From Bacillus testis (lineage in GTDB: Bacteria > Bacillota > Bacilli > Bacillales > DSM-1321): DNA of 64,000 bases. Below the pieces are notes generated by a model. The model ran no database searches. It had not been told where the DNA came from and saw only the letters and a program-made list of their open reading frames with translations. Both the position numbers and the translations under genes were made by a program. The stretch lies in the NCBI RefSeq assembly GCF_001243895.1, contig NZ_LN851186.1:1935852-1999851 (forward strand), read 5' to 3'. The stretch's first letter is position 1; every line of letters begins with the position of its first letter. Of the stretch, positions 3,857 through 8,037 are shown piece by piece.

Positions 3857-4007
3857 TGTTTAGAATATGGATTCCTTCATTCGGTTTAGAAAAGGCCGAT
3901 TTGTCGGGTCTTATGGGCAGTCTTCACTCCTCACTTTCTACCAGCCCCTACATAGTTAAATCGTTAAATGAGGGAGCTGTCCCGTAAGTAGATTTAAACG
4001 CAAAATG

Positions 4008-4047
4008 GAGAAAGGCAGAAACGTTGATCAACGTTTCTGCCTTTCTC
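4008..4047. repeat. Perfect 40-bp palindrome
   Basis: Each arm is 20 bases (GAGAAAGGCAGAAACGTTGA and its exact complement) with no loop between them, followed by a short T-rich stretch. As RNA it would form a long hairpin that could end transcription from either side, separating the plus-strand CarD-like gene from the minus-strand gene at 4148. The flanks (AGCTGTCCC at 3975-3983) recall insertion-sequence ends, so it may instead be a mobile-element remnant. The rest of 3857-4147 holds no gene. Confidence 0.75.
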
Positions 4048-4147
4048 TTTCTTATGTCTGAAGGATTTTTTCAACACTCTCAGCCTTAAAGGTAGAGGTT
4101 GTACGAACGTTACAAAGCATTTTGCGTGAGAGGTGGGAGTTCAAGGG

Positions 4148-4990
4148 TTATAGTGCTTTGCCAATAGTTATGTGCCATTCATTGCCTGTGCCGATCGTAT
4201 ATGTATCTGCAAATGATTTTTGATTTAAAGCAATCCCTAAATGATCAAGTGAATTCATATAAATGATTGCCTCTTCTAATTGACTGTCGGCAAAAGATCG
4301 GCCATAAAGAACCTCTTCCTCGTACACCACGATGCCTTCTTTCTCAATTTTCACCCATGCTTTTTCTCCCAGTGCGATATCCAATTCCTTAAACAATTCT
4401 CTCGGTATATTTGTCCACAAATTACCGAAACAAATATCGAGAATTTCTATAATGCCAATTATCTGATTTTCGCTTCGATAAGCTTCAAATAAAGGGAGCT
4501 CAATTAGGGAATCAACTGGAACTTCTGGCCCCACTTCCTCAAAATAAATTTTGCCTGAAGCTAATCTTGCTCCTGTATAGGCGTAAACATCGCGGCCGTG
4601 GAAGGTGTATGATTCTCCTGAACGCGGCAATCGGTTCACGCTTTCATCGAATAATCGTGCTTCGGCAATTCCAATTTTATTTTTAATATGGGAAAGGGTA
4701 CCATTGTCCGGTGTTACCACATAGTGTCCATCCATTGTTTTGACGACAATACTTCTGCGGTCACAGCCTACCCCCGGATCAACTACAGAAACAAACACGG
4801 TGCCCTCAGGCCAATAAGAAATGGCCTGCAATAGACGGTAGGAACCTTCCCATACATTAAATGTAGGAATGTCATGCGTGTTATTACTGATTTTTAATGT
4901 TGGGTCAACTGAAAGGGCTACTCCATACATGGCGCTGACAGCTCCATCACTTAATCCAAAATCCGATTGAAAAACTAATAACTGTTTCAT
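4148..4990 (-). CDS. SAM hydroxide adenosyltransferase (DUF62 family)
   Basis: A 280-residue member of the DUF62 family, which also includes the SAM-dependent fluorinase and chlorinase. Motifs run in order: FQSDFGLSDGAVSAM at the N-terminus, NNTHDI (about 36-41), VVDPGVG (about 69-75), TPDNGTL (about 93-99) and FHGRDVYA (about 129-136). The C-terminal half is the smaller beta domain. Characterised prokaryotic homologues outside the halogenases split S-adenosylmethionine with water into adenosine and methionine. The fluorinase's extra loop is not evident, so SAM hydrolysis is the likely reaction. The gene is preceded by a T-box leader with a Met specifier, so it is probably switched on when methionine is scarce, which fits release of methionine from SAM. 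GGTGGGG precedes the ATG. Confidence 0.88.
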   Translation of the reverse strand: MKQLLVFQSDFGLSDGAVSAMYGVALSVDPTLKISNNTHDIPTFNVWEGSYRLLQAISYWPEGTVFVSVVDPGVGCDRRSIVVKTMDGHYVVTPDNGTLSHIKNKIGIAEARLFDESVNRLPRSGESYTFHGRDVYAYTGARLASGKIYFEEVGPEVPVDSLIELPLFEAYRSENQIIGIIEILDICFGNLWTNIPRELFKELDIALGEKAWVKIEKEGIVVYEEEVLYGRSFADSQLEEAIIYMNSLDHLGIALNQKSFADTYTIGTGNEWHITIGKAL

Positions 4991-5016
4991 ATTAACCCCA
5001 CCTATCTATTTTTTAT

Positions 5017-5335
5017 TAAAAAACACCACATCCTTATCAAGCATAAGGACGTGGTGTAAATTCACGTGGTGCCACCTTAATTCGCTGTTTATTCACATAA
5101 ACAGCCTCCATAAGTGTATAAGTGCAAAAAACATACTTATTTCACTTTGTTATTGATAACGGGTACCTAATCCCGTCGGAACTTACTTGTATAGCTTACC
5201 GTATACGTTCAGCACGAGGCTCAGAGGCCATTTTCAAAACTGTATTTCACGCTTCTTTCCAGCTGCCGAAGCTCTCTTTAGAGAAATATCCAGAATTTAC
5301 TCTTCTCTTCAATGCCTTTATAATATTTTGAATTT
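5017..5335 (-). promoter_or_regulatory. T-box leader (Met specifier)
   Basis: Reading the minus strand, a stem I region holds AGAGAAGAGTA and AGAGAGCTTCGG. Next comes a specifier loop with GAAAATGGCCTCTGAGC, in which ATG followed by a purine fits the specifier position. The highly conserved T-box bulge GGTGGCACCACG lies at plus positions 5063-5076. A strong terminator follows: ACACCACGTCCTTAT pairs with ATAAGGATGTGGTGT (5023-5057) before a T-run. The competing antiterminator would use the T-box sequence. Uncharged tRNA-Met binding should permit readthrough into the SAM hydroxide adenosyltransferase gene. A shifted specifier TGG (Trp) is possible but would be followed by a C. Confidence 0.88.
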
Positions 5336-5341
5336 AGCGTT

Positions 5342-5371
5342 ATTCTAACTAGGTTTTTTTGAGGCCGTCAA
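5342..5371 (-). promoter_or_regulatory. Sigma-A promoter of the T-box leader
   Basis: On the minus strand TTGACG (plus 5366-5371) is separated by 18 bases from TAGAAT (plus 5342-5347). This places the transcription start near 5335, just ahead of stem I of the T-box. Confidence 0.75.
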
Positions 5372-5504: not shown

Positions 5505-6695
5505 TTAAGGGAATGTCTTCTGGCCTCTATCTGTAAATATGCCGAGTTTTCCGATTCGATTGACAGCTTCCAACAAGCGTTCTTTGCTTTCAACCAGCCC
5601 GATTCGTACAAATCCTTCGCCATACGCTCCAAACCCACTGCCGGGAGCCACAGCTACATCTGCTTGCTGGAGCAGCAGGTCGGCAAATGCCTCTGAAGAG
5701 AAACCATCGGCGACAGGCATCCAGACAAAGAAAGAACCGGGCGGCGGATTGCCGTGCCAGCCTATTTGGCGGCATGCATCCATGAAAGTATTGCGTCTGT
5801 CCTCATACATGTTAACCAATTCTGCCGCATAGCCATTGCATTCGGATAGAGCGATCGAGGCTGCATCCTGGATTGCTGGGAATATACTCACATACATATG
5901 GTCCTGCAGAAGGTTGATCGCTTCGATCACATCTGAATTGCCTACAGCAAAACCAACACGCCAGCCGGCCATATTAAAGGTTTTGCTCATCGTATAGATT
6001 TCGATACCAACATCTTTGGCATGTCCAGCCTGCATAAAACTTGGCGGTTTCTGTCCGTCGAAACCGATTGCCCCATAGGCGAAATCATGGACAGGTATAA
6101 TTCCGTTCTTTGCGCAATAGGAGGCCGTTTCTTCAAAGAATGGCATTGTGGCGCATGCGCCGGTAGGATTGTTAGGATAATTCAGAAAAAGAAGCCTGGC
6201 CTTCTCAGAGATATCTGCGGGTACTGATTGGTAATCGGGTAAGTAATTCCGTTCCTTCATTAAGGGGAGAAAGTAGGGAGTTGCACTGGCCATAGCGATT
6301 CCTGATAAATAATCAGGGTAACCGGGATCAGGTACCAATACCAAATCGCCTTTGTTACAAAAACAGATTGGCAATTCAATCAGACCGCTTTTTCCACCGA
6401 AAAGGATGGCTATCTCTTTCTCCAGGTCTAAAGATACCCCATATTCGTGATGATAGAAGGTGCGGATTGCTTTTTTAAAAGAATCTTTTCCACGAAAGGG
6501 TGAATATTTGTGGCTGGCAGGATTTCTGGATGAACGGTTCAATTCATCTACTATTTTTTCAGGCGCCGGCTGATCCGGATTGCCTTGGCCAAGATTGATA
6601 ACATCCTTGCCCTCTGCTTTTGCCTTATTCACTTTATGAACCAATGAAGAAAAATATTGAGGCGGCAAACTCTGTAATGTTTTGCTGTATTGCAA
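5505..6695 (-). CDS. Class I/II aminotransferase, MtnE (YkrV)-like
   Basis: A 396-residue PLP enzyme of fold type I. Visible landmarks are INLGQGNPDQPAPEKIV (about 33-49), LNYPNNPTGA (about 170-179, substrate and cofactor contacts), HDFAYGAIGFDG (about 203-214), SKTFNMAGWRVGFAVG (PLP-binding Lys about 237) and FVRIGL near the C-terminus (substrate carboxylate Arg). The sequence is very close to Bacillus aminotransferases annotated MtnE, which convert 4-methylthio-2-oxobutyrate to methionine in methionine salvage; related enzymes use aspartate, alanine or aromatic amino acids. No S-box leader is seen upstream. Its neighbour on the same strand is a T-box(Met)-controlled SAM-cleaving enzyme, which supports a methionine-related role. 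The ATG start follows a modest, C-interrupted ribosome binding site (AGGGGGTC). Confidence 0.78.
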   Translation of the reverse strand: MQYSKTLQSLPPQYFSSLVHKVNKAKAEGKDVINLGQGNPDQPAPEKIVDELNRSSRNPASHKYSPFRGKDSFKKAIRTFYHHEYGVSLDLEKEIAILFGGKSGLIELPICFCNKGDLVLVPDPGYPDYLSGIAMASATPYFLPLMKERNYLPDYQSVPADISEKARLLFLNYPNNPTGACATMPFFEETASYCAKNGIIPVHDFAYGAIGFDGQKPPSFMQAGHAKDVGIEIYTMSKTFNMAGWRVGFAVGNSDVIEAINLLQDHMYVSIFPAIQDAASIALSECNGYAAELVNMYEDRRNTFMDACRQIGWHGNPPPGSFFVWMPVADGFSSEAFADLLLQQADVAVAPGSGFGAYGEGFVRIGLVESKERLLEAVNRIGKLGIFTDRGQKTFP

Positions 6696-6712
6696 GAAAA
6701 GACCCCCTAAAC

Positions 6713-6750
6713 AAATGAATAAAGACAGAAAATTATGTCTTTATTCATTT
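6713..6750. repeat. 15-bp inverted repeat before the aminotransferase gene
   Basis: AAATGAATAAAGACA (6713-6727) and TGTCTTTATTCATTT (6736-6750) are exact complements with an 8-base spacer. The position, 18 bases before the minus-strand start, makes it either an operator or a leader hairpin in the mRNA. Confidence 0.7.
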
Positions 6751-7618
6751 TACCGAGAGATACATTGAGAAACAATGCTTTTTTGTATGTAGGCTTTAGT
6801 CTTAGTAATTCTATGGTTCTTCCTTTCATGGAAGTGATCCGCCATTTTTTTATCTGCTCCCTGATCAGATGGATATTCACCCGAAATCATTAGGCAGAAT
6901 ATTAGTTGGTTCTACTCGGCTTCTATCATTGATTGCAGGGAAAACCAGCATGGCCAAACCCTCTGATTTATGATTCACGTATAATTTTTGTAGATTATCG
7001 TAATTGTGGAGTGAAGGTTTATTTGGTTGGCTGTATTGACAATTCGCATGATTGTCTTTATATGCACTAAAAGACTGGCTGTTACGTTAGGCTGTATAGC
7101 TTCAAATAGAGAAAGATCATTATATTCCATGTTTTTGCTATATATTGCTAGTGAACTGAAGTATAAATGTCTAGATAAAGAATATGTCTCTTTTTTCCTG
7201 TAAAATATGTCTCTTGTATCATTATTGGCTATTTCCTTATGGGAATTGTCAAAAGAAAATGAATAACAAGAGTGAATCTGCTTGTTTTTATGCCGGTTCT
7301 GCGATTGAATGAAAATTTTTTTATTTTTAGCAGGAAAAACTAAAGAAATTATTATGTTAATAAAATATTTTTGTGTGTAAGTTTTTCTTATTTGCCTTTT
7401 AGATTTTCATCATAATCTTTGGTGATTCTACTTAATCCGACATTGTTTTTAAATCTGGTTAGCTGTCCCCACATGCCTCTTAACGAACCTTTCACTTTAA
7501 GAGGCAAACCTTTGTGATCGTCCAGAAATAAATGGGCAACATGGTACAATCGTTTGAGACCTATTTTAGAAGACAAGGATCGCCGGAAGAGGAGAGACTA
7601 TTTTGATAAATACTAAAA
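6751..7618. other. Long region without a convincing gene
   Basis: About 870 AT-rich bases. A minus-strand frame at 7388-7576 (TTG start, 62 codons, basic, containing GMWGQLTRFKNNVGLSRI) has protein-like composition but no ribosome binding site. It could be a gene remnant. Another minus-strand frame of 46 codons at 6750-6890 also lacks a ribosome binding site. No RNA gene or S-box was recognised. Confidence 0.5.
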
Positions 7619-7620
7619 AA

Positions 7621-7671
7621 AATCAATATATAGTGTGTGATTTTGTGATAGAATCTATATATATGCATTAT
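7621..7671 (+). promoter_or_regulatory. Tandem NrdR-like boxes over a promoter
   Basis: CAATATATAG followed by TGT (7624-7636) matches the NrdR core CWATATATWG. A second related site, CTATATATATG, begins at 7655, 31 bases later, the three-turn spacing usual for paired NrdR boxes. TTGTGA (7643-7648) and CATTAT (7666-7671), 17 bases apart, give a plausible sigma-A promoter covered by both boxes. NrdR represses ribonucleotide reductase operons when dATP is high. Confidence 0.6.
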
Positions 7672-8037
7672 CTGTTTTTGGCAACAAAAAAATTTTTTAT
7701 TTTTTTAATCGGTAAATGATAGAGCCAATAAGACGCCAATGCTTGATAGCACGCATTTTTTTCTGTCAAGCCCCTTTTTTGCAAAGACCGTTTATCGAAA
7801 TGTCAACACATTTTTCTAATCAAAAAACTCCTAATTTGAGAGAGAAATTGATATTATAGAGAACATATGATTCATCAGAATATCTCTCTTTTCGACAAGA
7901 TGAACAAATGGCCATATTGTTGTTGGAGTGATGTTTCGTTGTGTCCATAGAGTCTTTATATTTAAAAAATGTTTATCACTAGCATGACTGTCATAAGAGA
8001 ATAGGCGCAAGTCAGTGAAGGGAGGCTGAGATAGCAG
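7672..8037 (+). other. Long leader of the nrd operon
   Basis: About 365 bases separate the proposed NrdR-controlled promoter from nrdI. It contains a stem GCTTGATAG (7741-7749) / CTGTCAAGC (7763-7771) followed by CCCC and six T, which could act as a terminator or attenuator. An extended -10 (TGATATTAT, about 7848-7856) may be a second promoter. No known riboswitch was recognised. Confidence 0.5.

Follow-up and report, generated by a model that had tools for sequence, protein, structure and literature searches.

The window, a stretch of 64,000 nucleotides from Bacillus testis, contains an intact gene of the DUF62 (SAM hydroxide adenosyltransferase) family preceded by a T-box leader RNA. The features of the locus are listed in Table 1. 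A preliminary description made from the letters alone had placed a full T-box leader with an ATG specifier and a downstream DUF62 gene at positions 4148-5371, and had named the Rfam covariance model RF00230 as a check. The model was run and matched positions 5042-5321 of the reverse strand over its full length (1-219) with a score of 111.2 bits (E 9.7e-24), compared to a curated cut-off of 93 bits. Together with the promoter-like site, the 7-nt bulge and the terminator, this result confirmed that the leader is real and a complete T-box, and that the coordinates were right. Sub-threshold Rfam matches, such as rli56 at 3983-4072, were put down to chance.

Table 1 Features of the T-box-DUF62 locus and its surroundings (positions within the window).
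Feature	Position	Strand	Details
Inverted repeat and probable terminator where the DUF62 and CarD-like genes converge	4007..4048		19 pairs
DUF62 / SAM hydroxide adenosyltransferase gene, intact	4148..4990	-	280 aa; Pfam PF01887 1e-47, PF20257 1.9e-18
Intrinsic terminator, competes with antiterminator	5023..5057	-	15 pairs then T run; z -8.1
T-box leader RNA, stem I through antiterminator	5042..5321	-	RF00230, 111.2 bits
T-box motif AAGGUGGCACCACG	5065..5078	-	C5071 at the variable position of UGGN
Specifier codon, AUG (Met) favoured, in GAA-A-AUG-G	5229..5231	-	Frame calibrated on own-genome leaders
Predicted sigma-70-type promoter of the leader	5342..5371	-	TTGACG-18-TAGAAT; consensus match 10/12
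MtnE/YkrV-type aminotransferase gene, judged outside the DUF62 unit	5505..6695	-	NF005977, 621.8 bits vs cut-off 494

The antiterminator, with its 7-nt bulge UGGCACC, and the terminator are mutually exclusive, and both lie 5' of the DUF62 gene. By folding, the terminator hairpin (-23.9 kcal/mol) is far more stable than shuffled sequences. The T-box segment has the antiterminator as its minimum-energy fold, with a z of -0.5 that is not better than shuffles, and stem I folded from the single sequence was also no better than shuffles. The transcript of the DUF62 gene looks monocistronic.

The encoded protein matches both SAM_HAT domains of Pfam (SAM_HAT_N and SAM_HAT_C). Residues D71, R78 and H131, which we take to be the conserved Asp/Arg/His set that activates water in DUF62 enzymes, are kept and are present in 76, 76 and 75 of 76 homologues, respectively. 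Both Pfam domains and the D, R and H positions are held in common with the DUF62 protein of S. tropica, PH0463 of P. horikoshii and the fluorinases. Two substitutions, R187C and G239E, depart from residues that are invariant in all 76 homologues. The best NCBIfam models for the protein are (R)-SAM hydrolases, with scores far below the equivalog cut-offs (NF058624, 124.9 bits against 350). The fluorinase model TIGR04507 gave 91.5 bits against a cut-off of 400. Sequence matches in the PDB are 2zbu, 2wr8 and 2q6o, along with the homologue 7ccg. In the DUF62 protein of one surveyed locus (L034), TFFGRD stands in place of TFHGRD, so that the conserved histidine is lost, and the Met T-box is kept.

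The MtnE-like aminotransferase gene upstream had been proposed to form a small methionine-recovery group with the DUF62 gene. As such a group would have it, the aminotransferase belongs to the MtnE type (PRK08068) and is encoded on the same strand, but its gene and the DUF62 start codon are separated by 514 nt, and the gap holds the promoter and leader of the DUF62 gene. Moreover, mtnK and mtnW, by which MTA salvage was judged, are absent from the genome, and MtnE-like genes are not among the recurrent neighbours of DUF62 in the loci of relatives. A shared methionine-salvage group is thus highly improbable, and this part of the preliminary description was dropped. Upstream of the aminotransferase, the ~1.3 kb at 6696-8037 that separates it from an NrdI-like gene contains no ORF of at least 70 aa and no Rfam match at the gathering score.

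Specifier codon and discriminator base

The specifier loop reads GAA-A-AUG-G-CCUCU-GAGC, which contains both AUG and, one base on, UGG; the frame therefore had to be calibrated. Leaders of the same genome, which has 24 T-boxes at E <= 0.001, served for this where they precede genes of known amino-acid specificity, with gene names read from the ORFs. The spacing from the codon to GAG(C/U) is 6 nt in 11 of these leaders (serS, valS, trpS, trpE, tyrS, leuS, ilvB, cysS, glyQ, ileS and alaS) and 7 nt in those of pheS and proI. In the window leader, the spacing to GAGC is 6 nt if the codon is AUG and 5 nt if it is UGG. The base 3' of the codon is a purine in 12/13 calibrators; in the window, a G follows AUG and a pyrimidine follows UGG. 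AUGG is also present in 38/38 homologous Bacilli leaders found in the survey described below. Calibration and homologous leaders together support AUG (Met) over UGG as the specifier, in agreement with the ATG of the preliminary description.

The alternative that the leader has drifted from the Met type in this species, reads the UGG contained within AUGG and senses tRNA-Trp (G73) was weighed against this assignment. The specifier helix of the window leader, AGAG:CUCU, is fully paired in the UGG register only. However, an identical A.C mismatch tops the helix of the own pheS leader, whose codon is undoubtedly UUC, and among the compared leaders the helix register fits AUG only in 8, UGG only in 20 and both in 13. 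The register is therefore ambiguous alone, and the AUG call rests on the codon-to-GAGC spacing and the purine rule, both of which argue against UGG.

The main support for tRNA-Trp, and the main doubt about tRNA-Met sensing, comes from the variable position of UGGN, a point overlooked in the preliminary description. Of 45 compared leaders, 38 have U here and 5 have A; the window leader is the only one with C, and one degraded leader was left unscored. The tRNAs with anticodon CAU found in the genome have A73, as sampled by a pattern search that could miss a rare gene, and are mismatched with the UGGC of the window. A C would pair with G73, and the own trpS and trpE leaders likewise have C. The published TBDB rule, which takes adjacent frames into account and draws on the discriminator match (PMC7778990), could therefore call the leader Trp. 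Pairing between UGGN and the discriminator is a usual feature of T-boxes but not an absolute one (PMC7778990). The U of 38/45 leaders pairs with A73, although U also wobbles with G73, and tryptophan has no known link to DUF62. Drift to tRNA-Trp was accordingly regarded as very unlikely. Sensing of tRNA-Met by the window leader may be weakened, or tRNA-Trp may be recognised instead. Four other Met-type DUF62 leaders (L085, L088, L094 and L134) have A at the variable base, which would also be a mismatch if their tRNA-Met has the usual A73.

Conservation of the leader and the ECF operon of relatives

The link between T-box and DUF62 is conserved across Bacilli. A homologous leader was found before 38/80 named DUF62 loci, comprising 38/53 in Bacilli and 0/27 in Clostridia, in a set ranked by similarity to the window and assigned to the two classes from names. 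Among 300 Bacilli genomes sampled evenly, DUF62 was present in 36 and the leader was found at 14/33 parsed loci. The laboratory strain B. subtilis 168, used as a control, has no PF01887 gene. The specifier is AUG in the 13 sample leaders that could be parsed by script, and L173 shows GAUGGUCCCGGAGC in its sequence. An Rfam scan confirmed the leaders of five first-round relatives and five sample loci; the other sample leaders rest on an nhmmer profile combined with the T-box motif, and several of the enterococcus-like leaders scored below the Rfam cut-off when scanned. No SAM riboswitch or other Rfam regulator was found before the T-box-less DUF62 genes of 16 loci. One relative has a SAM riboswitch 3' of both the T-box and the DUF62 gene (L175:2052-2153).

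In 27/38 T-box loci, the DUF62 gene is followed by genes for the S, A and T components of an ECF transporter. The S gene adjoins DUF62 in 25/33 loci of the Bacilli sample. At loci lacking the T-box, ECF genes were found in 2/14 parsed Bacilli loci and 16/24 parsed Clostridia loci. These operon counts cover related species and do not represent independent events. The S component matches PF07155 and NF010182, where "riboflavin" is a family-level annotation, and the A components match the ECF ATPase models TIGR04520/04521. The neighbours of solo DUF62 genes are unrelated to each other. Two DUF62 paralogues lie in or near one locus in L100, L112, L118 and G072:C5:329369-331233, with ECF genes in three Clostridia.

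A streptococcus-like locus carries TrkA, DUF62, S, A and T genes side by side. Without methionine, S. pneumoniae D39 upregulates spd-0431 and its neighbours, and spd-0431 is activated by CmhR; it adjoins Trk genes and is followed by a hypothetical gene and then an ABC ATPase gene (PMC5359408). This gene order, set beside the TrkA-DUF62-S-A-T locus, suggests that spd-0431 is a DUF62 orthologue. In S. suis, the S gene is annotated as MtsA of a methionine-regulated ECF transporter, and the gene before it, SSUSC84_0347, is named "RNA polymerase subunit delta" (PMC9423846). Since PDB chain 7ccg bears the same delta name and yet is homologous to the window DUF62 protein, the name "DNA-directed RNA polymerase subunit delta" on streptococcal DUF62 proteins is probably a propagated annotation error.

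The window locus is without ECF genes. A partner was sought elsewhere in the genome, and its PF07155 matches were not orthologous to the partner S protein of relatives. The better of these matches was rejected as a partner; its gene adjoins a PdxK-like gene, and it has only short, weak matches to the partner S protein. The window copy would, in our reading, be a solo, diverged remnant of the ancestral unit. A rival reading is that of decay at the locus in this species, with a leaky or dead switch and a relic gene. The C at UGGN unique to the window leader, the R187C and G239E substitutions and the loss of the ECF genes all point in this direction. So does G009, whose DUF62 is the closest (72% identity) among the ten proteins first compared and which has a terminator-like hairpin only, with no T-box. 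In contrast, the reading frame and all three of D71, R78 and H131 are intact, the divergence from L026 combines a moderate dN of 0.20 with saturated dS, and the predicted promoter and the terminator of the leader are preserved. Decay was therefore considered unlikely.

Proposed substrate and role of the DUF62 enzyme

The reading that best joins these data, and that is considered likely, is an AUG T-box attenuator that places DUF62 under methionine control in the service of methionine supply. The CCA end of uncharged tRNA-Met would stabilise the antiterminator so that the DUF62 gene is read, and with charged tRNA-Met the terminator would form. The enzyme is predicted to be a water-using SAM adenosyltransferase; as its products would be methionine and adenosine, it would serve methionine supply and not SAM supply. 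A tRNA-Met sensor also fits this role better than an S-box, which would turn a SAM-consuming enzyme on at low SAM. Judging from gene names, the S-boxes of this genome precede metNPQ-type transporters, Cys/Met enzymes and metK. In the ancestral setting, kept by most relatives, DUF62 would be the first gene of an operon with the S, A and T genes of an ECF importer. In this species, the importer has gone from the locus, and control may be weaker given the unusual substitutions in switch and enzyme.

The preliminary description had gone further in proposing that the cell splits SAM to recover methionine when tRNA-Met is uncharged. The T-box, the AUG codon, the DUF62 assignment and the conservation of their link held up, but the splitting of the cell's own SAM is one reading only and, like the MtnE group, was not supported. 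Hydrolysis of SAM that the cell has just made from methionine would be a futile loop with no methionine gain, and methionine obtained in this way would be costly. Both this loop and the importer in the operons of relatives make SAM that is imported or damaged, or a close relative of SAM, a more likely substrate than fresh SAM. The task of the ancestral unit is probably to take up a SAM-like compound and hydrolyse it. A more specific version, offered tentatively, is that T-box, DUF62 and ECF importer form a SAM-scavenging system for methionine shortage. The importer would take up SAM, its epimer or a close sulfonium relative, DUF62 would split it to methionine and adenosine, and the window species would retain the switch and hydrolase only. 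If this is true, DUF62 would gain a physiological role and MtsABC its substrate, which would reveal what is carried by an orphan ECF transporter annotated by default as a riboflavin importer.

The natural role of DUF62 enzymes, the ancestors of fluorinases, was described as unresolved in a 2025 study, whose authors doubt SAM hydrolysis as the physiological role and note that it looks wasteful (PMC12120602). The S. tropica DUF62 enzyme favours (R,S)-SAM, an off-pathway epimer (PMC12120602), a further point against own-SAM splitting. From this preference, and from the (R)-SAM hydrolases being the best NCBIfam models for the window protein, DUF62 could instead be a repair enzyme that clears (R,S)-SAM, with the link to methionine amounting to recycling of the methionine moiety. 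Repair, however, would not require induction by methionine shortage or a neighbouring importer, and the epimer load would track SAM and not uncharged tRNA-Met. A repair role was judged possible, though doubtful, and it is compatible with the preferred reading of a methionine-supply enzyme if the epimer is the substrate.

T-box, DUF62 and ECF transporter are each already known, and no paper linking a T-box with a SAM hydroxide adenosyltransferase was found in the open-access literature. The Met T-box of staphylococcal metICFE-mdh resembles the DUF62 leader in its AUG specifier and transcriptional control of methionine supply (PMC3771891). It differs in that it controls biosynthesis and binds initiator tRNA by experiment (PMC3771891), whereas the DUF62 leader is predicted to regulate a SAM-consuming enzyme. 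In Listeria, a Met T-box before lmo2587 was listed in 2008 as "Met related cytosolic hypothetical", with no function assigned to the protein (Wels 2008, PMC2494555), and may represent the same association. The S component of streptococcal MtsABC adjoins a gene that is probably DUF62, in what is probably the operon induced without methionine in S. pneumoniae (PMC9423846, PMC5359408). That system is under CmhR and not a T-box, and its transporter is missing from the window locus. The same switch before DUF62 and a transporter in relatives hints at a methionine-salvage job for DUF62, and a Met T-box and a methionine-regulated ECF importer in one operon would be the first concrete physiological context found for the family.

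Additional T-box leaders in the genome

A second AUG T-box leader, similar in sequence to the DUF62 leaders and with UGGA, lies on the forward strand at G000:C9:1424050-1424298 (L011). It is followed by a short ORF remnant and, 183 nt on, by a PF03417 (AAT) acyltransferase gene, and looks like an orphan Met leader. Tandem T-boxes (L002 and L009) precede trpE on the reverse strand at G000:C9:3837122-3837661, the upstream one with specifier UGG. Another leader, L014 (G000:C9:2856572-2856838, reverse strand), precedes an MFS transporter gene; its specifier is ambiguous, and CAA at the usual spacing would be Gln.
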